A stretch of DNA of 44,362 nucleotides. Source: an uncultured Alphaproteobacteria bacterium. GTDB lineage: Bacteria > Pseudomonadota > Alphaproteobacteria > Parvibaculales > Parvibaculaceae. Position 1 is the first letter of the stretch. Each line of letters starts with the position of its first letter. Made by a program: the position numbers and the translations under genes. Under the pieces are notes generated by a model. That model did no database searches. It saw only the letters and a list, made by a program, of their open reading frames with translations, and had not been told where the DNA came from. Below, in pieces: positions 1-34,288 of the stretch. Where the stretch lies: positions 1-44,362 of the forward strand of contig CAISYL010000221.1 of assembly GCA_903889655.1 (NCBI GenBank), written 5' to 3'.

Positions 1-282
1 AAGGAAGAAGCCGCCACGCCTCCCGGCAAGACGTTCATTGCGCCGAAGCCCGAACAGGACGTCGAGAACCTCGAACCGCAGAAGACCACAAAGGTCGAAA
101 CCGAGGTCACCTATCAGGCTCCCATCGAGCCGGCCCGGTTCTCCAAGCCGCGCGCGCGGCAGATCAGCGTCGCTCCGGCATCCATCGCACCGCAGCCGGC
201 GCCAATGGTCCAGTCCGCGGAGCAGAACCTCGTGCCTGACGCCATCGCCGCGCCGGCACCCGCGAAGAAGAGGTACTTCTGA
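1..282 (+). CDS. C-terminal tail of a probable DotC/TraI-like lipoprotein (5' end outside window)
   Basis: An open frame enters from the left edge and stops with TGA at 280-282, overlapping the next ATG by one base. The visible 93 residues are rich in Pro, Ala, Lys and Glu and end in Lys-Lys-Arg-Tyr-Phe; they look like a disordered tail and show no catalytic motif. The assignment is positional: in IncI/Dot-Icm transfer loci dotD, dotC, dotB and icmT follow one another, and dotB and icmT come next here. DotC is an outer-membrane core-complex lipoprotein in that system. The tail alone cannot confirm the family, so another transfer protein is possible. Confidence 0.5.
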   Translation, partial: KEEAATPPGKTFIAPKPEQDVENLEPQKTTKVETEVTYQAPIEPARFSKPRARQISVAPASIAPQPAPMVQSAEQNLVPDAIAAPAPAKKRYF

Positions 283-1478
283 TGAATGCACCCAGCATGC
301 CGGGGCATTTCGCGACCGGTCACGACGGCTCCTACTTCGTCTATGACGGACGCATGGTCGAAAACACATTCGACGAAATGCTGACATGGTGTGCCCAGCG
401 CAAGGCGTCCGACATCAATATCCAGTCCAACATGGCTGTCATCGCTGAAATCGGCGGCCATAACGTGCAGGTCACCAAGCGGATCGTCAGCCCCGCCGAC
501 GTCGAGGACATCACCCGCTATATCTACGGCTCCAACGGTACCGGCGAGATCAAGAGCGGCTACGACCTCGATCCCTCCTATGAGGTTCGCGGTCCACAGG
601 GCACCAAACGCTTCCGCGTCAACATCACAGCCATGCGATCCGGCAAGACGGACGGCGCCCAGATCACCCTGCGCGTGCTGCCCGCCGAGCCCGTTCCCAT
701 TTCCGACCTCGGCATCGAGCCGGAGATCATCGAGAATTTCCGGCCGTCGAACGGGATGTTCATCGTCTCGGGGCCGACCGGCTCGGGTAAGTCCACCCTT
801 CTGAGCTCCGGCATCCGGATGCTCATCGAACGGGAGGGCGCCCACGAGAAGATCCTCGAATATTCGAGGCCCATCGAATACGTCTATGACGGGGTGAACA
901 GCCCCGACAGCATGATCTTCCAGCACGAGGTGGGGCGCCACCTCCGTCCCCGCCATGGAGACGGCACGGAAGAAAGCGAATTCGCCTATTGCGTCCGGAA
1001 CGCCCTGCGCCGGAAGCCCAGCGTCATTCTCATCGGCGAGGCGCGCGACAAGGCGACCATCGAAGCGTCGATCGAAGCGGCACTCACCGGTCACGTGCTC
1101 TACACGACCACCCACTCCATTGGCGTCGCGGAGACGCTTCGTCGCCTTGTTCGTCCCTTCTCCGCCGACCAGCAGCGCGCCATTGCCGTCGACCTCATGG
1201 AGGCCATGCGCGGGATCGTCACCCAGTATCTTCGCCCGAGGCTCGGCGGCGGCAAGGTCGCGATCCGGGAATACATGATCTTTGACGACGATATCCGCGC
1301 CGACCTCCTGAAGCGCGATGCCGACGACTGGGGGCCGCGCATCAGGGAGATGTTCGAATCCCGCAATGTGATCTGCAAGAGCATGAAGCAGTCCGCGCTC
1401 GACCTCTATGAGCTGGGGTTGATCGCCCAGCATGACCGCGACCATGCGGTCGCCCGTATCGAAAGGTCGGCAGCCTGA
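282..1478 (+). CDS. dotB: DotB/TraJ-type secretion ATPase of a type IVB conjugation system
   Basis: This is a 398-residue member of the PilT/VirB11-like hexameric ATPases that power type IVB (Dot/Icm, IncI Tra) secretion from the cytoplasmic side. The Walker A loop GPTGSGKST lies near residues 164-172, an Asp/Glu-rich box with IEYVYD near 203, the Walker B segment ILIGEARD near 249-256, and a His box (TTTHS) near 275. The N-terminal part (DINIQSN near residue 44) has the usual ASDIH-like helix. Length fits DotB. The ATG at 282 overlaps the upstream stop, and the TGA overlaps the icmT ATG (ATGA), so this is a translationally coupled operon. PilT-type retraction ATPases are the nearest alternative, but the neighbours IcmT and DotM favour DotB. 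Confidence 0.93.
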   Translation: MNAPSMPGHFATGHDGSYFVYDGRMVENTFDEMLTWCAQRKASDINIQSNMAVIAEIGGHNVQVTKRIVSPADVEDITRYIYGSNGTGEIKSGYDLDPSYEVRGPQGTKRFRVNITAMRSGKTDGAQITLRVLPAEPVPISDLGIEPEIIENFRPSNGMFIVSGPTGSGKSTLLSSGIRMLIEREGAHEKILEYSRPIEYVYDGVNSPDSMIFQHEVGRHLRPRHGDGTEESEFAYCVRNALRRKPSVILIGEARDKATIEASIEAALTGHVLYTTTHSIGVAETLRRLVRPFSADQQRAIAVDLMEAMRGIVTQYLRPRLGGGKVAIREYMIFDDDIRADLLKRDADDWGPRIREMFESRNVICKSMKQSALDLYELGLIAQHDRDHAVARIERSAA

Positions 1479-1756
1479 TGGCCCATTGGAGAGATACGTT
1501 CCGATCCCCGAGGTTCCTCATGCTCGATGCGCGCGCCGCTATCCCGGTGCTCGTCTCCCTCCTCCATGTCGCATGGTGGACCGTCGTGCCGGCCCTCCTG
1601 GTCATCGCCATCTTCTTCTGGCTCGAGCGGATCGGGCTCGACTTCCTGTCCGCCATGCGCGCCCTCAGGGCGAACTTCGCCGGCAAACACCGGCCCGCCT
1701 TGTCGGGCGCGAAGACGCGCAAACCCATCGATTACGACCGGAGGCCGATGCCGTGA
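1478..1756 (+). CDS. icmT: IcmT/TraK-like small inner-membrane protein
   Basis: The 92-residue product starts with AHWRDTFRSPRFLMLDARAA, close to the start of Legionella IcmT, followed by two hydrophobic stretches (about residues 23-36 and 40-55) and a basic tail. IcmT/TraK is a conserved small membrane component of type IVB systems with poorly defined biochemistry. It directly follows dotB with an ATGA overlap, the same order as traJ-traK in IncI plasmids. The match of sequence start, size, topology and position makes this call fairly secure. Confidence 0.88.
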   Translation: MAHWRDTFRSPRFLMLDARAAIPVLVSLLHVAWWTVVPALLVIAIFFWLERIGLDFLSAMRALRANFAGKHRPALSGAKTRKPIDYDRRPMP

Positions 1757-1883
1757 AGGCTCCCTCAAGTCCGGTCAATTTTCTTTCCGCAGGGAACGTC
1801 GCGAAAAACGTCGCCGTCGGAATGGAATGTCCGAAATCCGAGTGCACCTCTCAGGCAGCAACACCAACCAGCAGGTTCTCTCA

Positions 1884-2906
1884 ATGAACAAGTCCCCCGC
1901 ATTCGTCGCCGTCGATGATGGCTACGCTCAGACCAAGCTCTATGGCGACGGTCCCGACGGCAAGCCGGTGAAGCTTGCCATCCGCACGTCGGTCCGCGCC
2001 GGCCGCTACGGTCTCGGTTCGATCTCCGGCGAAGCCGTGATCGGCTCATACGATACCGAGGAAGGCGACCAGTTCACGATCTCCGACGACATTGCCGCCG
2101 AGAACACCCAGTTCGACAGCTTCCACACCTCGTCGATGAACCGCGCGCTCGTCAATCACGTTCTGATCCAGGGCGGCTATTCCGGCCGGGACGTCAAACT
2201 GATCGCCGGTCTGCCCGTCGCCGATTTCTTTCTCGCCGACGGCAAGGATGAAGAGAAGATCGCGGCGAAGACGGCGAACCTGCTCAAGAAGGTCACCAGC
2301 GTCTCCGCCAACGCACCGGTCGCCAACCTGCGCGATGTGCGCATCGGTTGCCAGGCCGTCGCCGCCTTCGTCGATCATGTCCTCGACGACGACCTCAAAG
2401 AGACGGCCGACATGGACGCGACCATCGCTGTCGTCGACATCGGCGGGCGGACGACCGATATCGCTGTCGTCGTCCGCGGGAACAGCATCGATCACGAAAA
2501 GTCCGGGACGACCAATATCGGCGTGCTCGACGTGTACAAGGCGCTCTCCAAGGAAATCCGCGCCAAATTCAAGACGCGCGACGAGTTCCCCCTCTCCCAG
2601 ATGGATCAGGCCGTCCGCACCGGCAAAATCCGGCTCTGGAACGAGGAAAACGACGTTTCGGCTGAAGTCGCTTCCATTGTCCGCGAACATGAAACGCGCA
2701 TCGCCCGTGAGGTCGAGCGGCGTCTCGGTTCGGCGTCCAACATCAGCGGCGTCCTCTTCGTCGGCGGCGGCTCCGCCCTGTTCAAGGGTATCTCGGCCCG
2801 CTTTCGCAATGGGATCATGCACGACGACCCCGAATTCGCGAATGCGCGCGGCCTTCACAAATACGGCCGCTACATGGCCGTCGACACTGCCCAGGCCGCC
2901 GAGTAA
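1884..2906 (+). CDS. ParM/StbA-like actin-family ATPase
   Basis: This 340-residue protein carries the actin-fold signatures: phosphate 1 loop VAVDDGYAQTKL near residue 6, phosphate 2 loop VVDIGGRTTDIAVV near 182-195, and the adenosine loop VLFVGGGSALFKG near 292-304. The family includes plasmid ParM/StbA, which form filaments that push sister plasmids apart, and archaeal Ta0583-like actins. It sits alone between icmT and the next transfer genes, 127 bp after icmT, and I see no ParR-like DNA-binding partner next to it. A classical ParM normally sits before parR with a repeated parC, so a role in positioning DNA or the transfer machine is also possible. The ribosome-binding site before the ATG at 1884 is weak. 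Confidence 0.8.
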   Translation: MNKSPAFVAVDDGYAQTKLYGDGPDGKPVKLAIRTSVRAGRYGLGSISGEAVIGSYDTEEGDQFTISDDIAAENTQFDSFHTSSMNRALVNHVLIQGGYSGRDVKLIAGLPVADFFLADGKDEEKIAAKTANLLKKVTSVSANAPVANLRDVRIGCQAVAAFVDHVLDDDLKETADMDATIAVVDIGGRTTDIAVVVRGNSIDHEKSGTTNIGVLDVYKALSKEIRAKFKTRDEFPLSQMDQAVRTGKIRLWNEENDVSAEVASIVREHETRIAREVERRLGSASNISGVLFVGGGSALFKGISARFRNGIMHDDPEFANARGLHKYGRYMAVDTAQAAE

Positions 2907-2981
2907 CCGGTCCGGGCAATACAGCCGGGCATCGGCGTCTCATCCCCGCCGGTGTCCGGCTCCCATATCGAGCAGAGAGCA

Positions 2982-3491
2982 ATGATCCGAAACGTGATCG
3001 CAGTGTTGATGGCCGCAAGCGCCGCCGCCGAGTTTATCGGCTGGTTCGCGCTCGCCATCTTCTTTCTCCAGGGCGTCATCACCCGTGCTGAGAGCGGTCG
3101 CGGATGGGTGGTCGCCAATCCGCTGACATGGATCATTCATGGCGGGAAGCGCAATCCGATCGCCGACTACGTGCTGGCGACGACCTGCCTTGCCTTCTGG
3201 AGCCTCGGACTTGCGCTCTTCCTTCCGGTCGCCATGTTCGCGTTCCACACCGGGGCGGCGAGCGTCGTTCTCCAGTGGAAGAACCTCCTGCCGTTGATCG
3301 TCGTCATTGTGGCTGCTTCAGGTTTGCGCCGCGCCGGCATCAGCTCGAAGGACGCCGACAAGTATTTTTCTCGTGCCATCTACGCTCTGGCAGCGATCTA
3401 TCTGCTCATTTCCGCCGTCATTTATCCCTCGATATCAACGCAACTCGCCGCCGACCCTCGGATCGCGGCGATGGAGGGGCCCGCGAGATGA
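2982..3491 (+). CDS. Multi-pass membrane protein of the transfer block, function unknown
   Basis: The 169-residue product has about four hydrophobic segments: residues 3-25, 53-76, 87-106 and 124-142, with a short basic loop before the last. I do not recognise a family. Its place between the ParM-like gene and a lytic transglycosylase/DotM pair, and its overlap with the next gene (ATGA-type at 3488-3491), suggest a small inner-membrane part of the type IVB apparatus. ATG 2982 was chosen because a purine-rich GAGAG precedes it; an in-frame GTG at 2952 would add ten residues. Confidence 0.65.
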   Translation: MIRNVIAVLMAASAAAEFIGWFALAIFFLQGVITRAESGRGWVVANPLTWIIHGGKRNPIADYVLATTCLAFWSLGLALFLPVAMFAFHTGAASVVLQWKNLLPLIVVIVAASGLRRAGISSKDADKYFSRAIYALAAIYLLISAVIYPSISTQLAADPRIAAMEGPAR

Positions 3492-3856
3492 GCAGACCCC
3501 CGATCAAAGGTGGCGGCCTGGCGAAGGATGGACGCGTCCAGATGCTCCTCCGTAAGACAATTCCGCGCGAGGCCGCGCTTCTCGAAATATGGCAGGCCGA
3601 TATATCGAGCGCGCTGCGTCAGGACATATTCCGGACCGCGCTCGCCATCGGTATTGCGGAGCTCATTCGAACCGGCCGTCTGCCCCTCAGTCTCGACAAC
3701 CCAGAACGCTCACTCGATCAGCTTGGGGGCCTCCCCGTCGACATACCGCCGACTGCGGCGCCGACGCACTATGTGCCGAGCGCGCAACCCGCGCCGCGGC
3801 CCTCCCCCTCACCGAAGCCAGAGCAGCGCAAGCGCGCTCTTTCAGGGATCATGTAA
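3488..3856 (+). CDS. Small basic, Pro-rich protein, function unknown
   Basis: This 122-residue protein has an N-terminal helical region (about residues 15-65) and a tail of alternating Pro, Ala and Ser with Lys/Arg at the end. No signal peptide or membrane segment is visible. It overlaps the gene before it by four bases and its TAA overlaps the next ATG (TAATG at 3854-3858), so it is surely translated as part of the same operon. I cannot name a family; a small cytoplasmic adaptor of the transfer system is a guess. Confidence 0.6.
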   Translation: MSRPPIKGGGLAKDGRVQMLLRKTIPREAALLEIWQADISSALRQDIFRTALAIGIAELIRTGRLPLSLDNPERSLDQLGGLPVDIPPTAAPTHYVPSAQPAPRPSPSPKPEQRKRALSGIM

Positions 3857-4320
3857 TGGCCGGCGTCGTTCCCCTTACCGTTGCCTGCCTCCTTCAGGCA
3901 GCCCAACTGCAGCATGTTCCCCCGGCAGTGATCCTCACCGTGCTCAAGGTAGAGGGCGGGCATGTCGGCACCGTATCGAAGAACACAAACGGGTCGGAAG
4001 ACCTCGGCCCCATGCAGGTCAACACCAGCGCCTGGTTGAAACCGGTAGCGTCGATGCACTTCGGCGGCGACACCAAGGCTGCCTACGAAGCCCTTCGGGA
4101 CAACGGCTGCTACAACATCCATGTCGGGACCTGGATACTGCGTCAGGCGATCGATGAAGCCGGCGGCAACATCTACGAGGGCATCGGCCTCTATAACTCC
4201 CACACCACCAAGTACAAGGTTCGCTATCAAAGCCTCTTCCGGAAGCACTTCTGGGAAATGTTCGGTCCGCAAAGAACCGTGACGGCGGACGCCAGCGCGG
4301 ACCAGAAGGAAAAGAGGTGA
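3856..4320 (+). CDS. Lytic transglycosylase (VirB1/IagB-like, SLT domain)
   Basis: The 154-residue protein has the soluble lytic transglycosylase fold: VPPAVILTVLKVEGG carries the expected catalytic Glu near residue 33, DLGPMQVNTSAWL near 48-60 is the G-x-MQ-x-N motif, and YNSHTTKY near 112-119 is the C-terminal substrate motif. Such enzymes cleave peptidoglycan glycan strands to let a secretion channel or pilus pass. There is only a short hydrophobic N-terminus and no clear signal peptide, which is unusual for a periplasmic enzyme. It is coupled to the gene before it and is followed four bases later by dotM, so it is most likely the conjugation muramidase. Confidence 0.88.
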   Translation: MAGVVPLTVACLLQAAQLQHVPPAVILTVLKVEGGHVGTVSKNTNGSEDLGPMQVNTSAWLKPVASMHFGGDTKAAYEALRDNGCYNIHVGTWILRQAIDEAGGNIYEGIGLYNSHTTKYKVRYQSLFRKHFWEMFGPQRTVTADASADQKEKR

Positions 4321-4323
4321 GCG

Positions 4324-5565
4324 ATGGCCGAAGGTAAACCCCAAGGGGCGGGACGAGCCGGCGAGTCCGCCTTCGTCGCGGCACTTGTTCTCCTCGCCAT
4401 GGCCGCCGGAGGCCTCTGGCTCGGCGCGCGCTGGGTGGTCGTGAAATTCCTGTTCGCGCCGGCATGGGTCGAAATGCATGCGATCCGCCTCACGATCGGC
4501 ATAGGCGAGAAAGGACGTCAGTTCCTCGAATTCGTCACGGCGACCTATGACGGGCGCGTCGATCCCAACTCTGTCTATTGGGCCGATATCGTTGCCGTCC
4601 TTTCGACCGTCGGCGGCATCATGCGATGGCCGATCGCCGCGATCATCATCGTGATGACCGTCACCGTGATGTTCAAGATGAAAGGCGGCGGATTCACCCG
4701 GCGCTTCAGTCTCGTGTCGCGGAAGGGCACAGGCATTTCTTTCGTCGCCTACCAATCCTCCCTCTGGAAGGCGATCAAGCCCGTTCTCACCTTCAATCCG
4801 GACAACATCGGCACCAACGAGGATCCCGCGCGCACACCGCTCGAGTGGCTGCGCGATCACAACATCTCGCCAGTGCAGACCGTGCGCGGCGGTCCCATCA
4901 CCCTTCCGATCTCCGAGACCGAAGCGGCCTTGTCCCGTCAGCTCGGCCCGGTCTGGACTGGCCTGCTCGAGGCCCCGGTTCACGTTCAATTCCTGGCCGT
5001 AATCGCCGCCCTCAATTACAGCTGGTCGTCCGCGCGCCGGAAACTCGGTGAGGATGCCGCGACCATCATGTCGCAGAAGGCACCCCGCGAGAGACAGGAA
5101 GTGCTGCTTGCGAGGCTCATCAAGCCTCATCTCGAGAATCGCGCCCTCGTCACGGCCGTCAACACCGTCGCCGGGCGGCATCACTACCAAAGCACAGCGA
5201 TCTGCGCCCTCTACGAGTGGTCGCGCCGCAAGGGCGCCGTGCTGGCCAGCGCCGAAGTTCGGTGGCTGAAGCGGATCGATCGCGTGATGTGGTATTCGAT
5301 CAACAATCTCGGCCGTCGTGCTTTTCACGTCGAGGCCGGTGGCGTCATTGCTCACTACTTTGCTGAATGCGTGAACTTCGAGCGCATCGACAAGCCCTAC
5401 GTCCTTCCGGCAATCGAAGGCTTGCAGTCCACCGTCAATGAGATGGGCATCAGCAACCTCGACGCATATTTCAGGGAAACCGACGACTTCAAATTGGCGG
5501 AGAAGTCGCTTCGGGAGGCTGACCTTCTGGCTCAGTCCCAGCAGCCAAAGAGGCGACGGAAATGA
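4324..5565 (+). CDS. dotM: DotM/IcmP (TrbA)-like coupling-complex protein
   Basis: The 413-residue product has two N-terminal membrane segments (about residues 16-45 and 82-117) and a long cytoplasmic domain, the layout of DotM/IcmP and IncI TrbA. The C-terminal half contains the family's conserved region around HHYQSTAICALYEW and RVMWYSINNLGR, ending in a His-rich HVEAGGVIAHYFAE segment. In type IVB systems DotM joins the DotL (TrbC) ATPase in the coupling complex that receives substrates. DotL itself is not in this window and should lie elsewhere on the element. The stop overlaps the next ATG (ATGA at 5562-5565). Confidence 0.87.
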   Translation: MAEGKPQGAGRAGESAFVAALVLLAMAAGGLWLGARWVVVKFLFAPAWVEMHAIRLTIGIGEKGRQFLEFVTATYDGRVDPNSVYWADIVAVLSTVGGIMRWPIAAIIIVMTVTVMFKMKGGGFTRRFSLVSRKGTGISFVAYQSSLWKAIKPVLTFNPDNIGTNEDPARTPLEWLRDHNISPVQTVRGGPITLPISETEAALSRQLGPVWTGLLEAPVHVQFLAVIAALNYSWSSARRKLGEDAATIMSQKAPRERQEVLLARLIKPHLENRALVTAVNTVAGRHHYQSTAICALYEWSRRKGAVLASAEVRWLKRIDRVMWYSINNLGRRAFHVEAGGVIAHYFAECVNFERIDKPYVLPAIEGLQSTVNEMGISNLDAYFRETDDFKLAEKSLREADLLAQSQQPKRRRK

Positions 5566-12009: not shown

Positions 12010-12038
12010 CGGCGACGGCCTCATCATTACGGCCGGAG

Positions 12039-12286
12039 TTCGTGCTTTCACCCTCCCGGTGACCTGTCCGATTCGTGCTTTCACACGCCGCCAGGCGAAG
12101 AGGGTTTCAGCCCCTCGTTCGTGCTTTCACCCTCCTGCCACCCAGCTACCCCCAAGACCGCTCGTGACGGCGCCGATTCGTGCTTTCACACGCCGGCGCC
12201 TCGTGCTTTCGCCATCCACGACCTCGTGCTTTCACAAACCCTGGGGCTCGTGCTTTCACCCCTGTTTCCTCGTGCTTTCACACGCC
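12039..12286 (+). repeat. Left iteron array of the replication origin (eight copies)
   Basis: Eight copies of an 18-base unit with core TCGTGCTTTC start at 12039, 12072, 12118, 12177, 12200, 12223, 12247 and 12269. Most continue with AC plus one of two suffixes, CCTCC or ACGCC. The first four alternate strictly between these suffixes; copies 5-7 are more diverged. Such direct repeats before a RepA gene are iterons, the binding sites of the initiator, which also set copy number by handcuffing. Confidence 0.85.
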
Positions 12287-12291
12287 AATTG

Positions 12292-12370
12292 CGTTCGATT
12301 TGGCTGATATTTCAATAAGTTAGACGGCCCGTAACCTTCTAACAGACCTTATTTAACCCTCTAACGCTGT
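12292..12370. other. A+T-rich candidate DNA-unwinding segment of oriV
   Basis: Between the two iteron arrays lies the only strongly A+T-rich stretch of the region, with TGATATTTCAATAAGTTAGA and two related direct repeats, CCTTCTAAC and CCCTCTAAC (about 12333-12364). Iteron origins usually place the melting region beside the initiator sites. A DnaA-box-like TTATCCCCA (8 of 9 to TTATCCACA) lies at 12548-12556. Confidence 0.55.
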
Positions 12371-12441
12371 CCGTGGTGTGGGTAACCTCATTCCCGCCGG
12401 TAGAGCTCAAAACCCAGCGAAACAGGACTTGCAGGCGATAG

Positions 12442-12604
12442 GGAGGGTGAAAGCACGAGCTCGGCGCAGGTACGAATGGTGGAGGGTGAAAGCACGAGCC
12501 CCGGAGTCCGTTGTTCTGGCGGAGGGTGAAAGCACGAGCTGCGCCGCTTATCCCCAACAGCGTTTTGGCTCCCAATGACGCAAAGAGGCGTGTGAAAGCA
12601 CGAA
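12442..12604 (-). repeat. Right iteron array, opposite orientation (four copies)
   Basis: Four copies of the same 18-base iteron occur as reverse complements at 12442-12459, 12481-12498, 12521-12538 and 12587-12604. The first three carry the CCCTCC suffix exactly; the fourth carries ACGCC. Spacing is about 40 bases for the first three and 66 for the last. Together with the left array this gives a head-to-head layout around the A+T-rich centre. Confidence 0.85.
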
Positions 12605-12697
12605 TCGTGCGGGCCGTCGCGGTCCAACCGCTTGGAATGCGGACGGTGGCCACGAAGGCATGACATTCCGGCCTCCGATGCCGGCAATCAGGACAAA

Positions 12698-12806: not shown

Positions 12807-13709
12807 ATGTCAAAGCAGGTTCATCAGATCGAATTATTCGACAGCCCTCTCACGACCGCCGTGAAGGGCGAAACCTCCCTCATGGAGTACCCATTCTTCG
12901 ATCTGTCGAAAAATGGTCGCGCCCAGGGCATGCACTTCAACGACGGCAAAGTGAAGATCGACATCAAGGCCGCCAACGGCTCCGTCGCCACCATCTACGA
13001 CAAAGACGTCCTGATCTATCTCGCCTCCATCATGGTCGGAAAGATCAACAACGGCGAGACACCCTCTCAGACCTTCACCTTCACGGCGCACGATTATTTC
13101 CGCGTAACGAATAGAAACCGGTCCGCTCGCAGCTATGAGAGGATCGCGAGCGCCATCGAACGTCTGCAGGGCACGCAGATCAAGACGAATATCGAAACAG
13201 GAGGCGAAGGCGTCACCGGCTTCTTCTCCTGGCTCGAGAAGGCCGAGATCAACTACACCGTTGATCGTAGCGGCAAGAAGGTGATGCGATCGATCACCGT
13301 GCGCGTATGCGATTTCATCTACCGTACTGTTCTTATGGACCGCAGGTTCCTCACCTATCACCCGGCATATTTCGACCTCTCGCCGCTCGAACGACGCGTG
13401 TACGAGATCGCGCGCAAGCATTGCGGCCGGCAGGAAGGCTTCAAAATCTCCCTCGACAAACTTCACAAGAAAACCGGATCGGATGCGAGCCTGAAAAGCT
13501 TCAAACGCTCGCTCTACGATCTCATCGAGGCTGACAATGTGCCCGAATATATGATCGGAATCGTTGGAGATGATCGCAGCGCACTCACCAAGTCCTTGAA
13601 AGCCGACGGCATCGTTCCCCGCAACAAGATCACGGCCACGAAAGACCAGATGGTGGTGATCATGCCTCGCGGCGCCAAACGAACGGCAAGGCTTTGCGCC
13701 ATCACATGA
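12807..13709 (+). CDS. repA: RepA-type plasmid replication initiator (RPA family)
   Basis: The 300-residue protein matches the replication initiator protein A family of alphaproteobacterial plasmids. Recognisable parts are MEYPFFDLSKNGR near residue 25, a winged-helix stretch with YDKDVLIYLASIM near 63-75, FTAHDYFRVTNR, and the second winged helix near YFDLSPLERRVYEIARKH (about 188-205). It binds the iterons and opens the origin. ATG 12807 is the first codon giving the family's N-terminus; upstream in-frame codons read through the inverted iteron pair and are not coding. It converges on recJ, with ends overlapping by eight bases. Confidence 0.92.
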   Translation: MSKQVHQIELFDSPLTTAVKGETSLMEYPFFDLSKNGRAQGMHFNDGKVKIDIKAANGSVATIYDKDVLIYLASIMVGKINNGETPSQTFTFTAHDYFRVTNRNRSARSYERIASAIERLQGTQIKTNIETGGEGVTGFFSWLEKAEINYTVDRSGKKVMRSITVRVCDFIYRTVLMDRRFLTYHPAYFDLSPLERRVYEIARKHCGRQEGFKISLDKLHKKTGSDASLKSFKRSLYDLIEADNVPEYMIGIVGDDRSALTKSLKADGIVPRNKITATKDQMVVIMPRGAKRTARLCAIT

Positions 13710-15408
13710 GCGCGAGATCCTCGGGGAAAATGACGACTCGCGTGATGCCGCGATAAACGTTCGTTCCCAGTTTCCCGTAGAGATCGACGCGGCGCCCGAC
13801 TGCGGATAGCAGCGCGTCGCCGATTACCTGCCCGACGCCGTTCCAGACAATGACCTCGACTTCAGCCTCACCGCTTCGCATGCGCGCCTTCACATGCTTG
13901 TCCTTGATCGTGAAGCTGTCGATCAGGCGAGCGCCGTGAAGGATCACTCGCGGCTCGTGGTTGCCGGCGCCGAAGGGGGCCAGCAGCTGCAGATCGTCGA
14001 CCAGACCCGGCGTCAGCGCCTCGCATGAGACGAGAAGGTCGGCCGGCAATGGCGGCCTGATCAGACCATGGATGAGGTTCGAAAGGTATTCGGCAAATGC
14101 TGGTATCTTGGCTTCCTCGATCGTCAACCCTCCAGCCATTGCGTGCCCGCCGCCCTTTGCCAGCAGCCCGGCGGCGACAGCGCCCAGAATGGCTTTACCG
14201 ATGTCGAACCCTTCCACCGATCGCGCCGATCCCTTCCCATCTTGGCCGATCACGACGACAGGTCGATCAAACGCATCCTTCAGCCTCGCCGCTGCGAGGC
14301 CGATCAGCCCAGGGTGATAGGCCGGATTGTAGACGACGAGAACGCCGCTTTCTCGCTGCTCCTTCGCCAGCATCATGGCATCGGCCACAACAACATCCTG
14401 CATCTCACGGCGCTCTCCGTTCAGCTCCGTCAGGCGTTCAGCAACCGACCGGGCCTGATCCTGATCGTCGGCCAGAAGAAGCTCGGTTCCGAGCCGCGTG
14501 TTATCGATCCGGCCGGCGGCGTTGATGCACGGCCCGAGGACAAAGCCGCACGTCTTCGCCGACAGCTCGCTGACGTCCGTGGCCGCAAGCAAGGCCCGAA
14601 GCCCAGGATTGTCCGGGATCCGGCTCAATCCGAGTTTGACGTACGCCCTGTTCAATCCAACCAACGGCACCACATCGGCCACCGTGCCGAGGGCAACGAT
14701 GCCGAGAAGAGAGCTCAAATCCGGCTCGGTCGTATCCGTGAAATATCCCTCCGACCTCAGCAGGCGGTTGAGAGCGACGATGAAGAGGAAGGCCAGGCCC
14801 GCGGTGCACAGATAAGAGAACTCGCCAGTCTCATCGAGACGCTTGGGGTTCACGACGATGCCAGGCGGGAGCATTTCTTCCGCTTGATGGTGGTCGATTA
14901 CAATCGTCTCAAATCCAATCTCCGCGGCGACCGTCAACGGTCCGAATGCCGTCGTGCCGCTATCGGCAACGATGAGCAGATCGTGACCCGCTTCACGAAG
15001 TTTCCGAATGGCATCGGCGTTAGGGCCGTACCCCTCCTTCATTCGATCCGGTATGTAGAAAGACCAATTGTCGTAGCCGATCATCCGGAAATAACGACAC
15101 AGCACGGCGCTCGATGTCGCCCCGTCGACGTCATAGTCCCCGAAGACCACGATCCGCTTCCCGTCGCGCAACGCCTTCCGGCACAGGTCGACCGCCTCCT
15201 CCATGCCTTTCAACACGAACGGGTCCGGCATGAACTGCTGGAAAGACGGCTTGAGCCACGATGCGACGCTACTGACACCGCGCCGCACGGCGATCTCTGC
15301 GACCATGGGCGGCAGCCCGGCAGCGTCCGTCGGCAAGCTGGATACCGGAGCGATATCCCACTGCTTACCCCTGACCGATGCAGCCCCTTCCAGAAATGGT
15401 GCACCCAT
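13702..15408 (-). CDS. recJ: RecJ-like single-strand DNA exonuclease
   Basis: The 568-residue protein is a DHH-family phosphoesterase of the RecJ type. Motif I DYDVDG is at 91-96, VADSG at 147-151, the DHH motif IDHHQAEE at 171-178, LGTVADVVPL near 245, and the DHHA1 Gly-rich GGGHAMAGGLT in the C-terminal half, followed by the OB-type domain. RecJ degrades 5' ends of single strands in recombination and repair. One difference from the consensus is Ser-Gly-Thr-Thr after motif II where Cys-Gly-Ile-Thr is usual. It is the last gene of a three-gene run (icmB, UvrD-like, recJ), with a one-base gap to the gene before it. Confidence 0.93.
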   Translation of the reverse strand: MGAPFLEGAASVRGKQWDIAPVSSLPTDAAGLPPMVAEIAVRRGVSSVASWLKPSFQQFMPDPFVLKGMEEAVDLCRKALRDGKRIVVFGDYDVDGATSSAVLCRYFRMIGYDNWSFYIPDRMKEGYGPNADAIRKLREAGHDLLIVADSGTTAFGPLTVAAEIGFETIVIDHHQAEEMLPPGIVVNPKRLDETGEFSYLCTAGLAFLFIVALNRLLRSEGYFTDTTEPDLSSLLGIVALGTVADVVPLVGLNRAYVKLGLSRIPDNPGLRALLAATDVSELSAKTCGFVLGPCINAAGRIDNTRLGTELLLADDQDQARSVAERLTELNGERREMQDVVVADAMMLAKEQRESGVLVVYNPAYHPGLIGLAAARLKDAFDRPVVVIGQDGKGSARSVEGFDIGKAILGAVAAGLLAKGGGHAMAGGLTIEEAKIPAFAEYLSNLIHGLIRPPLPADLLVSCEALTPGLVDDLQLLAPFGAGNHEPRVILHGARLIDSFTIKDKHVKARMRSGEAEVEVIVWNGVGQVIGDALLSAVGRRVDLYGKLGTNVYRGITRVVIFPEDLALM

Positions 15409-19428: not shown

Positions 19429-21777
19429 TTAGGAGCACTTACTCGCCTGGCAATCGAGGCATTTCATGCATCCTTCTTCGCGGATGACTGCCGGGGAACC
19501 GCATTTGGGGCAGGTTTCGCGGGCAACGATCGTCGCCGTGGACAACACAGCCTGCTCGGCTTCCGGCGTCGACTCGCTCACCTGACCCATCTCGCTAAAG
19601 TGCTGACGCAAGACATGCGCGATGAGGGCGGCCCGGCTGGGGATCAGCCGCTGATTGTAGAACGACTGCTGATCGACTGACTGCACGGCCGAGAGATGTT
19701 CGAAGAGGAAGCTCATGTCGCCGCCCTCGCCGAAGACTTCATGCTGCTTGAGCGTCGCGGTCTGCCTCAACAGAGCAGTGATGGTGAGCGCGAGAGCATC
19801 CATCATCTCCATGTCGCTTGGCGACGTCGGCTTGATGAAGATCTCGATCGGCCAGACAAATTTGCTGCCGTTGACGGTCTCGACTTCGGTGTTGTTGATC
19901 GTGATGTAGAAGTTGCCGTTGGTCCACGTCACCTTGTGGGTGCGACCGGAGAGCGTCGTGGGCCGCCGGAACTTCGGAGGAGCCGACCGCTCCGCCTTCG
20001 CTGCGGACTTGTCGGTAGCGGATTCCGCGACGAGAACGGCACCCCTGCTGGCTGTCGGCCGATAAGTCGTGCAGCCCTTGCACCCTTCCTCCCACGCCTG
20101 CTCGTATACGCGCTCGAAGTCCTGAAAGCTCATGTCTTCCGGACAGTTGATCGTCTTCGAAATCGACGCGTCGACGAACTCCTGGCACACAGCCTGAATG
20201 GCGAGGTGATCGTCGACGCTCAATTCCAGCGCCGTCGCCATATAGGGAGGCAGGTTGTCGAGCGAATGAGACTCCGGATCGAACCCGTTGACCCGGCAGT
20301 AGTCCGCCCAACCCTTGTCGACGGCCGCATATTGCGCCGTCGAGTTGTCGGGCTGACGCACGTTCCGGATGTATCGCAGGCTGAATGCTGGTTCCAGACC
20401 GCCCGACACGTTGCCAGCATAGATCGCCGTCGTGCCGGTGGGCGCGACCGTCAACAGCACGCCATTCCGAATGCCGTGTTTCTTGATCAGCTTTTGCACG
20501 GCGGCGGAGCGCCTCCCGACATTGTAACCCGCCAGGAACCCCTCGCGTTCATAGGCGGGGAAAGCGCCACGTTCGGCAGCGAGCAGCGCCGACGCTCCAT
20601 ACGCCGTTTCCGCCAATTCCATCATGACTTCGCGCACCAGCGGGACTGCCGCTCTGCCGTAGCGCACTCCCATCATCATGAGCATGTTACCGAGCCCCAT
20701 GATGCCGAGGCCGATCCGGCGCTTCTGGTGGGCCTCGTGATGCTGCTCCGGCAACGGGAACTTCGTGATATCGAGCACGTTGTCGAGGAAGCGAACCGAT
20801 TCCGCGACGACTTCGCGAAAGCGAGGCGTGTCAAATCTCGCCTTTTCCGTAAACGGATCGAGCACGAAATTGGCGAGGTTCACGGCGCCGAGATTGCAGT
20901 CGCCATAGGGCGGCAGCGGCTGCTCACCGCAGGGATTTGTCGCCCGGATCGTCTCGCAGTAATGAAGGTTGTTCCGCTGATTGACCCGGTCGATGAAGAT
21001 GAGTCCGGGCTCCGCATGCTCATAGGTATTGCGGATGATCATCTCCCAGAGATCGCGCGCCGGAAGCCGCTTGTAGACGTACCAAGGCTTGCCGTCGCGT
21101 TCGAGAACTTCGACGTGCTGACCGTCGCCGCGAGGAATGTGGAAGCCCAGATCCCACGTCTCGCCGGCGGCGAGCGCGCCCATGAAGCTGTCCGTAATCA
21201 TGACGGAGAGGTTGAACTGGGTCAGCCGGTTCGGCGTCCGCTTCGCAATGATGAAGTCCAGGACGTCCGGATGGTCGCACATCATGGTCGCCATCATGGC
21301 GCCGCGGCGGTTGCCTGCGGATTCGATTGTCCGGCAACCGGCATCCCACGTGTCCATGAAGCTGAGCGGACCCGATGAGGTGCTGCCCGCACCCTTCACG
21401 ATCGCGCCATTCGGACGCAACGTCGAGAAGTTCATCCCGATGCCGCCGCCCTTCTGCATGGTGAGCATCGCCTCGTTGAAAGCTTTGAGGATGCCAGGCA
21501 GGGAGTCTTCGATATCGCAGCTGACAAAGCAGTTGATCAGCGTCACGAAATGCGGCGAACCCGCGCCGGCGAGAATGCGCCCGCCAGGCACGAAGTCTTT
21601 CCGGCGCAGCATCGCGGCGGCAGCGGCTTTGTGCTCCTCCGAAGTGTCGTGAATGTAGACGGCGGAAACCACGCGTCGCGTGGTGTCTTCGTCCGTAACG
21701 TCAATCGGAGAGCCGTCGGCACTCCGCAGGCGATATTTTTTTGCCCAGACGTCTTCCGTCAGATTCATCAACGCCAT
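19429..21777 (-). CDS. nrdJ: Class II (adenosylcobalamin-dependent) ribonucleotide reductase
   Basis: The 782-residue enzyme reduces ribonucleotides to deoxyribonucleotides using B12. Visible signatures are NCFVSCDIEDS near the first substrate Cys, KGGGIGMNFSTLRP, the active-site NPCGEQPLPPYGDCNLGAVN region, LTVAPTGTTAIYAGNVSGG, and a Cys-rich tail CPKCGSPAVIREEGCMKCLDC with CSK-like redox cysteines at the end. It has the compact size seen in phage and plasmid NrdJ rather than the longer chromosomal alphaproteobacterial form. ATG 21777 has GGAG at six bases; an in-frame TTG at 21876 would add 33 residues. It is the last gene of an operon with a prepilin peptidase and two unknowns. It would supply dNTPs during transfer or replication without oxygen dependence. 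Confidence 0.94.
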   Translation of the reverse strand: MALMNLTEDVWAKKYRLRSADGSPIDVTDEDTTRRVVSAVYIHDTSEEHKAAAAAMLRRKDFVPGGRILAGAGSPHFVTLINCFVSCDIEDSLPGILKAFNEAMLTMQKGGGIGMNFSTLRPNGAIVKGAGSTSSGPLSFMDTWDAGCRTIESAGNRRGAMMATMMCDHPDVLDFIIAKRTPNRLTQFNLSVMITDSFMGALAAGETWDLGFHIPRGDGQHVEVLERDGKPWYVYKRLPARDLWEMIIRNTYEHAEPGLIFIDRVNQRNNLHYCETIRATNPCGEQPLPPYGDCNLGAVNLANFVLDPFTEKARFDTPRFREVVAESVRFLDNVLDITKFPLPEQHHEAHQKRRIGLGIMGLGNMLMMMGVRYGRAAVPLVREVMMELAETAYGASALLAAERGAFPAYEREGFLAGYNVGRRSAAVQKLIKKHGIRNGVLLTVAPTGTTAIYAGNVSGGLEPAFSLRYIRNVRQPDNSTAQYAAVDKGWADYCRVNGFDPESHSLDNLPPYMATALELSVDDHLAIQAVCQEFVDASISKTINCPEDMSFQDFERVYEQAWEEGCKGCTTYRPTASRGAVLVAESATDKSAAKAERSAPPKFRRPTTLSGRTHKVTWTNGNFYITINNTEVETVNGSKFVWPIEIFIKPTSPSDMEMMDALALTITALLRQTATLKQHEVFGEGGDMSFLFEHLSAVQSVDQQSFYNQRLIPSRAALIAHVLRQHFSEMGQVSESTPEAEQAVLSTATIVARETCPKCGSPAVIREEGCMKCLDCQASKCS

Positions 21778-21868
21778 AACTCGCTCCAGAACAATTGATT
21801 GCGATAAATTGCTTAGAGAAAGATCGGCGCTATGCGGAAATTCCAACTGCCAGAAGAACTTTTTTTCT

Positions 21869-22528
21869 TCAGGCAAAGGTTGGCCACCAGTTGATCACTG
21901 CAAGTCCGACAATTGCGCAGGCGAAGGCCGGACCCATCGGAAAACCCTCTTCTTTAGCAAGGACTTGGTTCGCATACGCCATGATTGTGAAGATGCTCGC
22001 GGCGCAGAAAAGAGCGAACAGAACGTTTGGGAAGCCGAACCATGCGCCGCAGATCGCCGCGAGCACGACATCCCCGCCGGCCTGCAGTTGCTGACCTTTC
22101 ACTCGACTCATGATCTCCATGAGCCCCCAAATAAGTGATCCGCCAACCATCAGGCCGATGCCGCGGTCCACTACGTCCGGACAAAAGGGCGAGGCCAGTA
22201 ATCCCAGGCAGAGCAAGGGAATTGACATGCATTCGGGCACCAGGTGCTCGGCGAGGTCGATCCATGCAATGGACAATGTCGTCAGAACGAGCGATCCGAC
22301 GAGGAGCGACGGAATGCCCAAGCCGTACTTCGCAACTACCCACCCCATCATCCCGGCGGTCAGGGCCGCGAATCCATATCTGAAGAAGGGAATCCTGGTG
22401 CTCCGGCTCGCTACCCCAATCTCCTCTTCTTCCCAACCGATATATCGCGGAAGCCGCTCAAGAGTTGGCAGAAGAAAACAATATACGGCGATGGCCGCCA
22501 CGACCGCGGCAATGACGACCTCGGTCAT
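21869..22528 (-). CDS. Type IV prepilin peptidase (A24 family)
   Basis: The 219-residue polytopic protein has about seven hydrophobic segments and the two aspartates of A24 aspartic peptidases: D91 in AWIDLAEHLVPE and D153 in QAGGDVVLAA, the Gly-x-Gly-Asp-type motif. The N-terminal methyltransferase domain with paired CxxC is absent, as in shorter family members such as IncI PilU. These enzymes cut leader peptides of type IV pilins in the inner membrane. IncI plasmids use a type IV pilus for mating in liquid, so a pilin operon may lie elsewhere on this element. It is coupled to the upstream gene by ATGA. Confidence 0.85.
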   Translation of the reverse strand: MTEVVIAAVVAAIAVYCFLLPTLERLPRYIGWEEEEIGVASRSTRIPFFRYGFAALTAGMMGWVVAKYGLGIPSLLVGSLVLTTLSIAWIDLAEHLVPECMSIPLLCLGLLASPFCPDVVDRGIGLMVGGSLIWGLMEIMSRVKGQQLQAGGDVVLAAICGAWFGFPNVLFALFCAASIFTIMAYANQVLAKEEGFPMGPAFACAIVGLAVINWWPTFA

Positions 22529-30615: not shown

Positions 30616-31917
30616 TCATCCTTTGATCCGTGCGCGCGTCAGGTCATGGACGAGCTTGATCATCTCCTGAAGATGTCCATCGCCTTCGACGCTCGACCAC
30701 GGCTCAACAAGAGCCCCGTGCATCACCGAGTTTCGTATCCGGCTCCAGGTTATGACATGGGCCGGATTCACGGCGCCGTCGGCTCCGAGAGTTCGCATAA
30801 AACTGAGCGCACTACGTTTGCTGATCATTCCGAGGTTGGAAAGCATCCGCTCTCTCAGTTTAGCATCCCCGTCCCACCCCTTGATGTGGGTCTTCATCGA
30901 ATCGAGCGAGGCGTCACCGTATTCGGATTCTCGATCAGCGCCGTTCATGAGGTCGTTGACGATGGACTCGGCGGCGCTCGCCAAAGACAGGGTGAGAATC
31001 CATCGTGATCCACTCAAGGCCTGCGAGAGCTCTTCGTAAAGCCGCGTAATCGGGTTCGCGTCGAACTTGCCCGCCTTGACGATGAAGGTCAGAATATCGG
31101 AGTACAATCTCCAGAAGTCTTCCGTCCGGCCGGCCCCGATCGCAGCGGGATGCAACAGGCCGACAACCGACGCGACCTTTCGTTGCGGTGAAGGTCGTAG
31201 AGACACTTGTGCCTTGCCATCTCCGAAGTTGCGAGCAACAAGGCGCGGATAGACGGGGACGCCGAGCAGTATGCGCAACGGCTCGGTGAGCCAGTTTTCG
31301 GCGTAAGGATGTCTCAGCTCTTCACTGCAGTTGCCGGTGATCCAAAGCGCTTGTCTGGCGGGATCCAGGTCGAACGAGATGGTGGTGCCGAGCACGTTCA
31401 GTTTGTGTTGGCATAAAGCGCCGCTGGACGAAACCTCTTGATCTCCAACATATGATTTCGTCGTCAGTTTCCCGGTCATAGGCAGGGCGACGGGCGGGAT
31501 CAATAGAAGTTCGACGCCGCAGCTCTTGGAAACCCAGTGACCGGTTGCGATCGTCATCAAGGATTCGATTTCTCCGGTGAGCGGCCATCCCCTGTCGTGA
31601 TCAACTGAAAAATTGAGGTTCGTGACGTAGCCACCCAACCACTCCACACCGCGATAGTCGGTCGCCTTCAGGCGAAACCGCTTAATGTGGTCGTAGGGAT
31701 CGGCCTTACTCTCGCGGTATTTTCTGAGCGCTAGCTCGGCATCCCTTGGCGTACCGTGCATGAAAAAGCGGATCTCGGTCTCGCTGCTTATTTCGATCCT
31801 GCCAGGACCGGTGAAGATGTCTCGCTCATCGTCCCGACCGAGGAGTTCCATCCCAGGACATTCTATCGTCCTGGGAGCGTCTCCTAGGTACCGCCTCCAG
31901 TGATCGAGCGTGCGCAA
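30616..31917 (-). CDS. Putative HEPN-domain protein (ApeA-like), candidate defence RNase
   Basis: The 433-residue protein has a beta-rich N-terminal part (FTGPGRIEISSETEIRFF, VEWLGGYVTNLNF) and a helical C-terminal part. Near the end RIRNSVMHG gives the HEPN motif R-N-x3-H at about residues 395-400, the usual catalytic signature of HEPN RNases. The arrangement resembles abortive-infection ApeA proteins, which have an N-terminal beta domain plus a HEPN domain. It is a single minus-strand gene between the topoisomerase operon and a repeat-rich region, with no evident partner. The family call is an inference from the motif and layout. Confidence 0.55.
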   Translation of the reverse strand: MRTLDHWRRYLGDAPRTIECPGMELLGRDDERDIFTGPGRIEISSETEIRFFMHGTPRDAELALRKYRESKADPYDHIKRFRLKATDYRGVEWLGGYVTNLNFSVDHDRGWPLTGEIESLMTIATGHWVSKSCGVELLLIPPVALPMTGKLTTKSYVGDQEVSSSGALCQHKLNVLGTTISFDLDPARQALWITGNCSEELRHPYAENWLTEPLRILLGVPVYPRLVARNFGDGKAQVSLRPSPQRKVASVVGLLHPAAIGAGRTEDFWRLYSDILTFIVKAGKFDANPITRLYEELSQALSGSRWILTLSLASAAESIVNDLMNGADRESEYGDASLDSMKTHIKGWDGDAKLRERMLSNLGMISKRSALSFMRTLGADGAVNPAHVITWSRIRNSVMHGALVEPWSSVEGDGHLQEMIKLVHDLTRARIKG

Positions 31918-31980
31918 TTTGCTTCTCCCGAGAAGGTCCTCACCAAAGACCCGTGGCCCTCTTCGACGCTAAGAGGAAAC

Positions 31981-32084
31981 GCATGAGGCGCGACTGGCGC
32001 CGGCGACCGTGAGGCATAAGTTGCGACTGAGGTGCACCATAAACTGCGACTGGCTTCAAACGATGCACCATAAACTGCGACTGG
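31981..32084 (+). repeat. Left repeat array with CATAAACTGCGACTGG units
   Basis: Two identical copies of CCATAAACTGCGACTGG (32037-32053 and 32068-32084), one variant GCATAAGTTGCGACTG (32014-32029) and one weaker copy (31981-31997) stand in direct order. Both exact copies are preceded by TGCA. They are matched by five opposite-strand copies at 32473-32623. Confidence 0.75.
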
Positions 32085-32190
32085 CACCTCATTGTGAGGC
32101 TTCTGGGACGGGACGGCGAAGGGTGACAGCCGGCCTACGGATTTTCGACTTCGCGCAAGAAGCAATCTCGCGTGCGCATTCCGAATAAGG

Positions 32191-32290
32191 TACAATTGCT
32201 CTTGTCACGTCGCTTGTGTCAGAAGCGCACGTGTCCGACCCTACGGGTCACACCGCTCGGCAGTTACAGCTGTCGGGCGGTTTGTTTTTT
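32191..32290 (+). ncRNA. Possible small RNA between the inverted repeat arrays
   Basis: A TACAAT -10-like element (32191-32196) and, about 55 bases on, a strong Rho-independent terminator bracket a non-coding stretch of about 85 bases that includes a small hairpin (GACCC...GGGTC near 32237-32249). No open frame of note covers it. The -35 region is weak. A counter-transcribed or antisense control RNA would fit a replication locus, but this is inferred from layout only. Confidence 0.35.
32253..32290 (+). terminator. Strong Rho-independent terminator
   Basis: An 11-pair stem (CCGCTCGGCAG at 32253-32263 with CTGTCGGGCGG at 32270-32280, two G-T pairs) with a six-base loop is followed by TTTGTTTTTT. 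No protein gene on the + strand ends just before it, so it must serve a short transcript or block read-through. Confidence 0.85.
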
Positions 32291-32472
32291 GTGGCCCCAG
32301 AAATCGCCCCACCTCTGTCTCTGACATATGCTGAACGCGGATAGCGCTCTGCCGGAAGCGTCCGCGCCGGCTACCCGAGAAGGTGGTGTGTTGGGCGCCT
32401 TGCCATCGCCCCCCCAGACGGAAGACCACCGGGAAGCCAAGAGGTTGAGATGGACCTCTTCGCATCCGACCG

Positions 32473-32623
32473 CAGTCGCACCTTATGCTCTCTTTTTTGC
32501 GTTTCCAGTCGCAGCTTATGGTCGATTTTCTGCTCGTAGTCGCAGCTTATGGTCGATCTCATGAACGCAGTCGCAGCTTATGCTGCGCCTCTGGCCATAT
32601 CGTGCGCCAGTCGCAGCTTATGC
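32473..32623 (-). repeat. Right repeat array, opposite orientation (five copies)
   Basis: Five copies of CAGTCGCAGCTTATG-type units start at 32473, 32506, 32537, 32568 and 32608, nearly all about 31-33 bases apart (three helical turns). They are the reverse complement of the left array with one consistent change (GCTTATG for GTTTATG). Regular phasing suggests cooperative protein binding to one face of the DNA. Confidence 0.78.
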
Positions 32624-32791
32624 GTTCCGTCGCATTCACTTTGACTCACACAAAAAGGATAGAGCCCGGCCAGCCTAGGGTGAAACTTTCGGGTTACCGC
32701 TTCATTGGAAGCTAACTTGTAATTAGCTTCACCTGATCTTACGTTTGGACAGGTATAGCAAGCGCCGAATCACTGATCCAGCGGGTATCAT

Positions 32792-33934
32792 ATGGCCGGA
32801 AAACATGAACAAATACAAGCCGTTGAGGTGGCCGCGCTGGCATTGGGCCGATTGCGAGCCCAAGCGGAAAACTACCCTCTCCGTTCTGCGTTCGAATTTC
32901 GCCGGAAATTGGTCGAATGCGTCGCGTCGGCGTCGCTGGAAGGCCGAATGACAGACCTGTTCACCGTGCTCGGGACGGTGGCCGGATTGCCCATACGACG
33001 GCAGCGGGACTTCGGCGGCCTATCGCTTGCGCTCGATATTTTTGCGGGCCTCGAAGATGTCGACCGAGACGATCATCCGAAAGGCCTTCAGCGGGACGTA
33101 GCGACCCTGGCGGCCGGCTTTAAGAGTGAGGGCGGGAACCTCCTCAAGCTGGCGGAATTCGTCTCTGACCTTCAGAACGATGACGCGATCGGGCCGGCTG
33201 GGCGGGCGCTGGCATGCCGAATCCTTGCTGGGCCGCAGTATCTAAACGGGTTCTTGCTCTCCGTTTCAGAGGGGCTGAAGGGGGCGCCCGGATATCGCTC
33301 CATATCAGAACCCTCTGATCGGGCTGTGCACGTCCTCAGGCGCTTCGCGCGCGCCGCAGATACCAGCCGAGCGGCCCTCTCGGCCTTCCAGCAGGAGCGG
33401 GATCTGTGGTTGACCAAGACGGCCTATACAGCGGAACGAGATGCTTCCGGACAGATCGTGTACGGGCAAAAGAGACGCAGCAATTCGAAGCTGCCGCGGC
33501 TGGTGGATCTGATGCTCACGATCAACGTGCTCACGGCGTCGCAAGTTGCCCGGCTTCTCGGCATCTCCCCTCGGGGGGCTACGGACCTTCTCAAGGAGCT
33601 CGCTGACCTCGATCTTGTGGTGGAGGTGACTCACCGGAGCAACTGGCGGGCTCATGTTTCAAGGGAATTCGCCAAAGGAAACCTTGACGCCCTAAGCCCG
33701 CAAAAGCGATCCAGGAGCGGCCGCCGGCTGGCGGCCGCTGCTCGGTTGGAAGTAGCCGCGCTTGCCGGAATGACAGCAAAGGCGCCCTCCCCTACTTCGG
33801 AACAGGATGCCAAAACGCCGGTGATCGAGGTGGATGAGGAGGCAGAAAACGTGGTCGTGGACGGCGATATCGAAGATCTAGTGCGCTCCATCAACGATGC
33901 TATAGCGCGCAGCACCAAGGTTTTGGATCGTTGA
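32792..33934 (+). CDS. DUF1612 / RHE_PE00001-family DNA-binding protein
   Basis: The 380-residue protein matches the RHE_PE00001-type proteins of rhizobial plasmids, which join a DUF1612 region (FEFRRKLVECVASASLEGRM near residue 26, then a helical middle) to a C-terminal helix-turn-helix. The HTH is seen at about 247-275, LTASQVARLLGISPRGATDLL. The tail is acidic and polar. The family's function is unknown; these genes often lie beside plasmid replication or partition genes. Here it lies between a double repeat array and the TGCTAGCA centromere-like sites, so it is the natural candidate to bind one of them. The ribosome-binding site is weak. Confidence 0.78.
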   Translation: MAGKHEQIQAVEVAALALGRLRAQAENYPLRSAFEFRRKLVECVASASLEGRMTDLFTVLGTVAGLPIRRQRDFGGLSLALDIFAGLEDVDRDDHPKGLQRDVATLAAGFKSEGGNLLKLAEFVSDLQNDDAIGPAGRALACRILAGPQYLNGFLLSVSEGLKGAPGYRSISEPSDRAVHVLRRFARAADTSRAALSAFQQERDLWLTKTAYTAERDASGQIVYGQKRRSNSKLPRLVDLMLTINVLTASQVARLLGISPRGATDLLKELADLDLVVEVTHRSNWRAHVSREFAKGNLDALSPQKRSRSGRRLAAAARLEVAALAGMTAKAPSPTSEQDAKTPVIEVDEEAENVVVDGDIEDLVRSINDAIARSTKVLDR

Positions 33935-33976: not shown

Positions 33977-34252
33977 TTAATGCTAGCATTAACTGCTTAT
34001 TATTGCTGTCATCTTACTAGCATTATGCAGACGATTGGCAAGACTGTCTGCTAGCATTATTATTTCTGCACCAGCTCCGACGAGTTCGAATTTCCCATGC
34101 GCGAGGCGTCCTCGCAGATTCTCACATGCTTCCTTTATGCTAGCAGCCAATTACCACCGGAACTTATTCTTAATGCTAGCAGGTATATTCATTTATCTGT
34201 GACAATTGTGCTAGCAGATACACTTGATTTCCGCCGCGAGTTAATGCTAGCA
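33977..34252. repeat. Centromere-like array of seven TGCTAGCA sites (candidate parC/parS)
   Basis: TGCTAGCA palindromes start at 33981, 34049, 34138, 34174, 34209 and 34245, with a one-mismatch copy (TACTAGCA) at 34015. Within the two groups the spacing is 34-36 bases, with 89 bases between groups. The first site extends to a perfect 16-base palindrome, TTAATGCTAGCATTAA. The array fills the A+T-rich region just before parA, the usual place for the centromere and operator of type Ib partition systems. Confidence 0.82.
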
Positions 34253-34288
34253 CTTAGTTGGTTCTGAGATTCACCTGTGGGGACGAGT

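Follow-up and report, generated by a model that had tools for sequence, protein, structure and literature searches.

Facing arrays of a 16-nucleotide repeat on an alphaproteobacterial plasmid resemble the ends of Tn7-like elements and enclose a small-RNA-like block

Two arrays of a 16-nucleotide repeat face each other in the window (the whole stretch of 44,362 nucleotides analysed here), and their repeat units resemble the transposase-binding sites at the ends of Tn7-like elements. With a confidence slightly above even, the locus is read as what is left of a Tn7-like element without its tns genes, namely the arrays of transposase sites from both ends. The resemblance to Tn7-like ends is a stronger claim than the assignment to a Tn7-like transposon, because a TG at both tips, a target duplication and tns genes were all looked for and not found. 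If the assignment is true, an apparent second replication origin becomes a fossil mobile element. The locus and its two flanking genes, which are not counted in the element, comprise the following features.

30616–31917, − strand: gene with no Pfam or NCBIfam family assigned
31970–31981, + strand: putative left tip, TAAGAGGAAACG, with TA instead of the expected TG
31982–32084, + strand: left array, four 16-mer copies; proposed TnsB-type sites of one transposon end
32172–32293, + strand: small-RNA-like block, predicted to form three hairpins of which the third is an intrinsic terminator
32297–32464, − strand: eroded IS1182-family transposase-like fragment, its similarity divided among frames
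32472–32622, − strand: right array, five 16-mer copies; proposed TnsB-type sites of the other end
32623–32634, − strand: putative right tip, reading inward TGCGACGGAACG, with TG 12 bp outside CATAA
32792–33934, + strand: HTH_13-domain gene (PF11972, 32.9 bits, cut-off 26.1)

Arrangement of the repeat arrays

The repeat unit is CATAARCTGCGACTGG, of which four plus-strand copies, starting at 31982, 32015, 32038 and 32069 (3, 2, 0 and 0 mismatches), face five minus-strand copies at 32472, 32505, 32536, 32567 and 32607 (2, 0, 2, 1 and 0 mismatches) across a distance of about 390 bp. This agrees with the sequence-only reading of the window, which had described three good copies and one weak copy on the left and five opposite-strand copies on the right. 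The phasing of about 31–33 bases given there holds for five of the seven start-to-start spacings (33, 23 and 31 in the left array; 33, 31, 31 and 40 in the right) but not for the 23 on the left or the 40 on the right. The spacings are near three, two and four helical turns, as worked out by hand. The copies are alike and the spacers between them unlike, and the outermost copies of the two arrays resemble each other past the 16-mer, forming 28-nt arms that are 82% complementary. Both arrays sit between divergent open reading frames and have the same orientation relative to each.

Allowing three mismatches, the 16-mer has 10 matches in the window, nine at the locus and one at 23301, whereas shuffled windows give a mean of 0.56 and a maximum of 3, and none of 100 shuffles reaches 10. 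In the source genome (4.36 Mb), 13 matches with up to two mismatches are found versus 13 in a backwards-read control; eight of the 13 fall in the array locus and the other five are single. A solo copy with one mismatch elsewhere in the source genome (G000:C112:14647) was judged to be near chance. A two-copy array pattern has no match in genome_contigs, viral_contigs or any other genome searched, and plasmid searches with each array return chance-level matches only (best E values 3 and 6). Additionally, a megablast search for near relatives of the plasmid finds no match for 20000–44362 among plasmids.

Resemblance to the ends of Tn7-like elements

According to the passages of PMC8649781 that deal with Tn7-like ends, their hallmark is a pair of inverted-repeat arrays that are intergenic, closely spaced and placed around a tnsB. 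By the array criteria of these passages, which are applied there only near a tnsB, the window contains arrays of repeats of about 20 bp at both ends, inverted between the ends and intergenic, with neighbouring copies at most 75 bp apart. Polar arrays also occur at the plasmid's RepA origin, so layout alone is not decisive.

Ends of Vibrio Tn7-like elements are listed in Table 1 of PMC6360697. When the listed ends are cut as was done here, CATAA lies at base 13 from the tip in 8 of the 15 distinct ends, several of these eight being near-identical to one another, and in 10 of the 15 if up to one mismatch is allowed. The motif model was built on 13 of the ends, with two V. navarrensis ends excluded, and its training set consists of Vibrio I-F CAST-type ends only. 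Among the 88,698 window positions scored, the left copies rank 6 (32069), 7 (32038), 51 (32015) and 5286 (31982), and the right copies rank 9 (32472), 26 (32505), 25 (32536), 69 (32567) and 717 (32607). Seven of the nine copies are therefore within the top 69, while the two outermost score poorly. The best placement of the model puts CATAA on CATAA, and a result as good is obtained with none of 300 column-permuted models and with 4 of 300 random single positions. By this permutation test the copies agree in site sequence with known Tn7-like ends. Because the nine copies share a single motif, the test counts as one observation, and the model fires often in AT-rich DNA. The eight plus-strand iterons of the RepA origin give no comparable fit to it.

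The tips were examined for the remaining properties of such ends. The putative right tip carries TG 12 bp outside CATAA, as does the right end of VchCAST in the portion of PMC12969935 that describes it, whereas the left tip has TA at that distance, so a terminal TG at a fixed distance from the outermost site is found at the right end only. Eight of the 12 letters are equal between the tips, as counted by eye. As an excerpt of PMC10201428 reports for a type I-F CAST, a TG at the terminus, about 8 bp away from the first site, is critical, and integration efficiency oscillates with site spacing at a period of roughly 10 bp, with which the array spacings here are in line. No 5-bp target duplication is present at the inferred tips (GACGC versus TTCAC), and 2,544 tip pairs tried give one exact 5-bp match, about 2.5 being expected by hand calculation. 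No tns gene is found between the ends in tblastn searches of the window with four proteins from a Parvibaculum MAG (G323) and two from a second genome (G211); the best match in the window outside the array locus has an E value of 0.022 over 53 aa. Additionally, neither a TnsA nor a relative of the G323 TnsB is found in the source genome.

Taken against the ends of type I-F CASTs (Tn6677/VchCAST), the window locus thus has in common the arrays at both ends, their inversion between the ends, the CATAA core, a right-end TG at 12 bp and roughly helical spacing. It differs in its lack of tns genes, the TA of its left tip, the missing 5-bp duplication, the GC-rich letters that follow CATAA (CTGCGACTGG) and the short distance between its arrays, about 390 bp.

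If the assignment holds, several TnsB-type subunits would bind the phased sites at each end, pair the two ends and cut at the TG of a tip, 12 bp beyond the outermost CATAA. The IS1182-like fragment would lie within the element, between the RNA-like block and the right array. Such an element would be incapable of moving itself, because no tns gene is found in the window and neither a TnsA nor a relative of the G323 TnsB in the source genome; it could at most be mobilised in trans, and past movement of the segment is itself presumptive.

Similar sites were sought upstream of other tnsA genes. In G211, AAACGACACATAA occurs twice, 75 bp apart, upstream of the open reading frame that precedes tnsB (presumed tnsA), and TG lies 12 bp outside CATAA under one of two choices of the tip. 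On a Vibrio plasmid, an annotated tnsA is closely preceded by two CATAA sites 31 bp apart; this end is identical to one listed in Table 1 of PMC6360697, whose CATAA lies at a base other than 13. No such CATAA pair is present upstream on the inward strand at the tnsA/tnsB loci of Acinetobacter, Comamonas and Halomonas.

The small-RNA-like block and the IS1182-like fragment

The centre of the locus contains two features that the sequence-only reading missed, the small-RNA-like block ending in a terminator and the IS1182-like fragment. The predicted fold of the block, tested on 32197–32295, is more stable than all 200 of 200 shuffles (z −3.55). The strong terminator that had been described between the arrays has its 13-pair stem (32252–32281) and T tract, but the scan finds one such site against a shuffle mean of 1.0. 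A −10-like TACAAT is located ahead of the block at 32191–32196. Transcription of the block is at most presumed, because a promoter scan gave no sigma-70 consensus site.

An Rfam search of the block returns nothing at the gathering cut-off, and an assignment as ctRNA was rejected as a chance-level match (E 0.49, 16.5 bits versus a cut-off of 45). The best match of the block in plasmids has an E value of 5, and none is found in viral_contigs. When 31900–32780 was searched against 41 genomes, six matched; the RNA part is matched only in the source genome and in G323, and the other four match over the IS1182-like stretch. The sole homologue of the RNA found is on the minus strand of the Parvibaculum MAG (G323:C125:24861–24985), and the RNA stem pattern likewise matches one genome_contigs record, the Parvibaculum MAG contig NZ_JAUYUS010000024.1 (80,308 bases). 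A covariance model of the RNA gives matches in 26 of 385 genomes of the class and 10 of 40 of the family (E <= 0.01). None exceeds 41.1 bits except those in the window and in G323:C125, and eight alignments of weaker matches that were inspected have mainly a terminator hairpin in common. The predicted fold is kept in the window and in G323, two sequences being little proof. Two pairs are changed on both sides, and both belong to the helix that covers the −10-like stretch; in the three hairpins every change is one-sided and falls within the terminator.

Directly past the block lies the 168-base fragment with interrupted frames. It matches nine plasmid records (Rhizobium, Agrobacterium and Bradyrhizobium) at 70–71% and four genomes of the genus at 77–78%. 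In one of the nine records the match is within a CDS annotated as an IS1182 transposase, and the other eight list no feature, so the fragment is described as resembling IS1182 on the basis of one annotated record.

The RNA homologue at a Tn7-like locus in Parvibaculum

In G323:C125, the RNA on the minus strand is followed on the plus strand by tnsA, tnsB, tnsC/tniB and tniQ. The RNA is divergent from tnsA and about 90 bp from its ATG, which is placed at about 25076 by frame reading; this position of the homologue is counted in favour of the Tn7-like reading of the window locus. Beyond the RNA, an end-like TGTATTCAGCG is found at C125:24661, and the RNA homologue is accordingly located between a putative end and tnsA. 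This end is weak, with A-rich 20-bp repeats rather than the 16-mer and with TG 15 bp from CGTAA, and no convincing second end is revealed by tip, motif and PWM scans. The two loci agree in the orientation of the RNA, which points toward the putative end in G323 and toward the right array in the window, and they differ in the A-rich 20-mers of the G323 end and in the tnsA, tnsB, tnsC and tniQ genes present there. In short, one genome has a small RNA next to the transposase genes of a Tn7-like locus, and another has it flanked by end-like arrays.

The G323 TnsB is distant from the others sampled: at E <= 1e-40 it is matched in three of 385 genomes of the class, namely in G323 itself and in two more, where identity is 26 and 28%. 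In viral_contigs, six pattern stretches yield no confirmed relative. Beside the G323 locus, the DNA at C125:22911–24383 (L032:8911–10383) is 94% identical to DNA near the TnsA locus of another genome (G396), and this similarity ends short of the RNA. A TnsA is present in six other genomes of the genus, with a score under the family cut-off in one case. Near these tnsA genes, the 16-mer has only isolated weak matches and forms no array, a scan not calibrated on a known end shows no direct-repeat array, and the covariance model finds no RNA match at the six loci. The link between the RNA and a transposon is based on one locus.

A wider proposal is that Parvibaculum harbours a Tn7-like lineage with a dedicated structured RNA between the tnsA-side end and tnsA, that the window holds a mini-element keeping only the ends and the RNA, and that the RNA acts in or regulates transposition or target choice; this proposal is regarded as doubtful. 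Should the RNA be part of the element, the idea of a Tn7-like transposon that has an RNA of its own for regulation or guiding could be put to a direct test.

Alternative explanations

The main rival of the Tn7-like reading is a regulatory array, in which the phased 16-mers would be bound by a DNA-binding protein of the plasmid, either the HTH_13 neighbour or some other one, that controls both divergent genes and the RNA-like block. This is a tangible possibility that is nonetheless considered unlikely. The position of the arrays between divergent reading frames, their equal orientation toward each, the likeness of the copies against unlike spacers and a neighbour with a DNA-binding domain all fit such a role, whereas nine sites across 640 bp are, in our judgement, large for an operator, and the resemblance of the motif to Tn7-like sites exceeds what permuted models give. 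The regions upstream of eight HTH_13 homologues were searched for polar arrays with 20 shuffles each; three of the eight (L104–L106) are based on partial matches, and an internal stop is present in one of these. With 14-mers, a Skermanella homologue gives five copies against a shuffle maximum of four, L104 gives five with shuffles also reaching five, and nothing is seen in the remaining six; with 12-mers, no homologue is above its shuffles, compared with 10 (14-mers) and 9 (12-mers) copies in the window. In the Skermanella case, on plasmid pSM-1 (L019:4166–4716), repeats resembling GTTCATGMGAAAAG form a marginal polar set upstream of the HTH_13 gene, which speaks for regulation. A clear array is present in none of the eight, so a link between the array and the gene is not supported, and the second control locus suggested earlier stays the main rival in the form of a possible private regulatory array.

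A further reading is a second origin of replication or an incompatibility locus, in which the repeats would be iteron-like and the initiator of a non-classical kind; this appears very improbable. The likeness to the iteron origin noted in the sequence-only reading is confirmed: the RepA (RPA) origin at 12024–12605 has eight plus-strand iterons (12040–12286) and then four minus-strand ones (12438–12605) of a different sequence, and its polar arrays of short repeats and overall size are similar to those of the window locus. Its spacings (22–66 bp), its adjacent initiator gene and its lack of resemblance to the Tn7-like end model set it apart. A ParA gene at 34277 with a palindrome cluster nearby, an HTH_13 homologue and a partial HTH_13 match a few kb from repC on two plasmids, and the part of PMC3898782 on etli were also counted in favour of an origin. 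As had been stated before, no classical rep gene is beside the arrays, and neither 30616–31917 nor 32792–33934 has an initiator family; DUF1612, as characterised in a section of PMC2686095 (a fic-like N-terminus plus a winged helix), is not an initiator. The arrays are not conserved with the HTH_13 gene, none of its eight homologues having a clear one, and the plasmid already has the RepA origin. The proposed second replicon is therefore not supported.

Remains of an IS21-family or other multi-site DDE element (Tn5053-like or IS1202-like) are hardly probable. IS21 ends carry multiple terminal repeats, as the window does, and ends with inverted multi-repeats, suggested earlier, are supported in kind. 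Subterminal repeat arrays are ascribed to Tn5053 and Tn552 in an excerpt of PMC8649781, and a second transposase site near each end to the IS1202 family in one of PMC10132070; CATAA in the latter was rejected as an end motif, being located there in target sites and not in ends. IS21 itself is not supported by the collections searched: the two-copy pattern is absent from genome_contigs and viral_contigs, and matches of the arrays in plasmids are at chance level. Furthermore, a scan of 29 of the window's 180 listed ORFs of >=80 aa shows no transposase family. A Tn7-like element is the better fit than IS21.

Neighbouring genes and other features of the plasmid

The product of 32792–33934 had been called a DUF1612/HTH protein. 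Its HTH_13 domain is found, but no DUF1612 model is listed for it, so the DUF1612 name is presumptive; a match to NF040876 is below threshold (54.7 bits versus a cut-off of 250). In viral_contigs, three pattern stretches give no confirmed relative of this protein. Upstream of the gene, an inverted repeat at 32708–32730, GAAGCTAA-N7-TTAGCTTC, is by eye a plausible operator. The gene at 30616–31917 has homologues in six plasmid records, and an Abi-family gene adjoins in two of the three records opened.

Directly upstream of the ParA gene, TGCTAGCA palindromes are clustered at 33978–34253, four of them at intervals of 35–36 bp, and are perhaps a partition site or operator. At 282–5565, genes with T2SSE ATPase, ParM/StbA-like and DotM domains are present, suggesting an I-type transfer system. 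The plasmid additionally encodes a RecJ-like protein (13702–15408) and a ribonucleotide reductase barrel domain (19429–21876).
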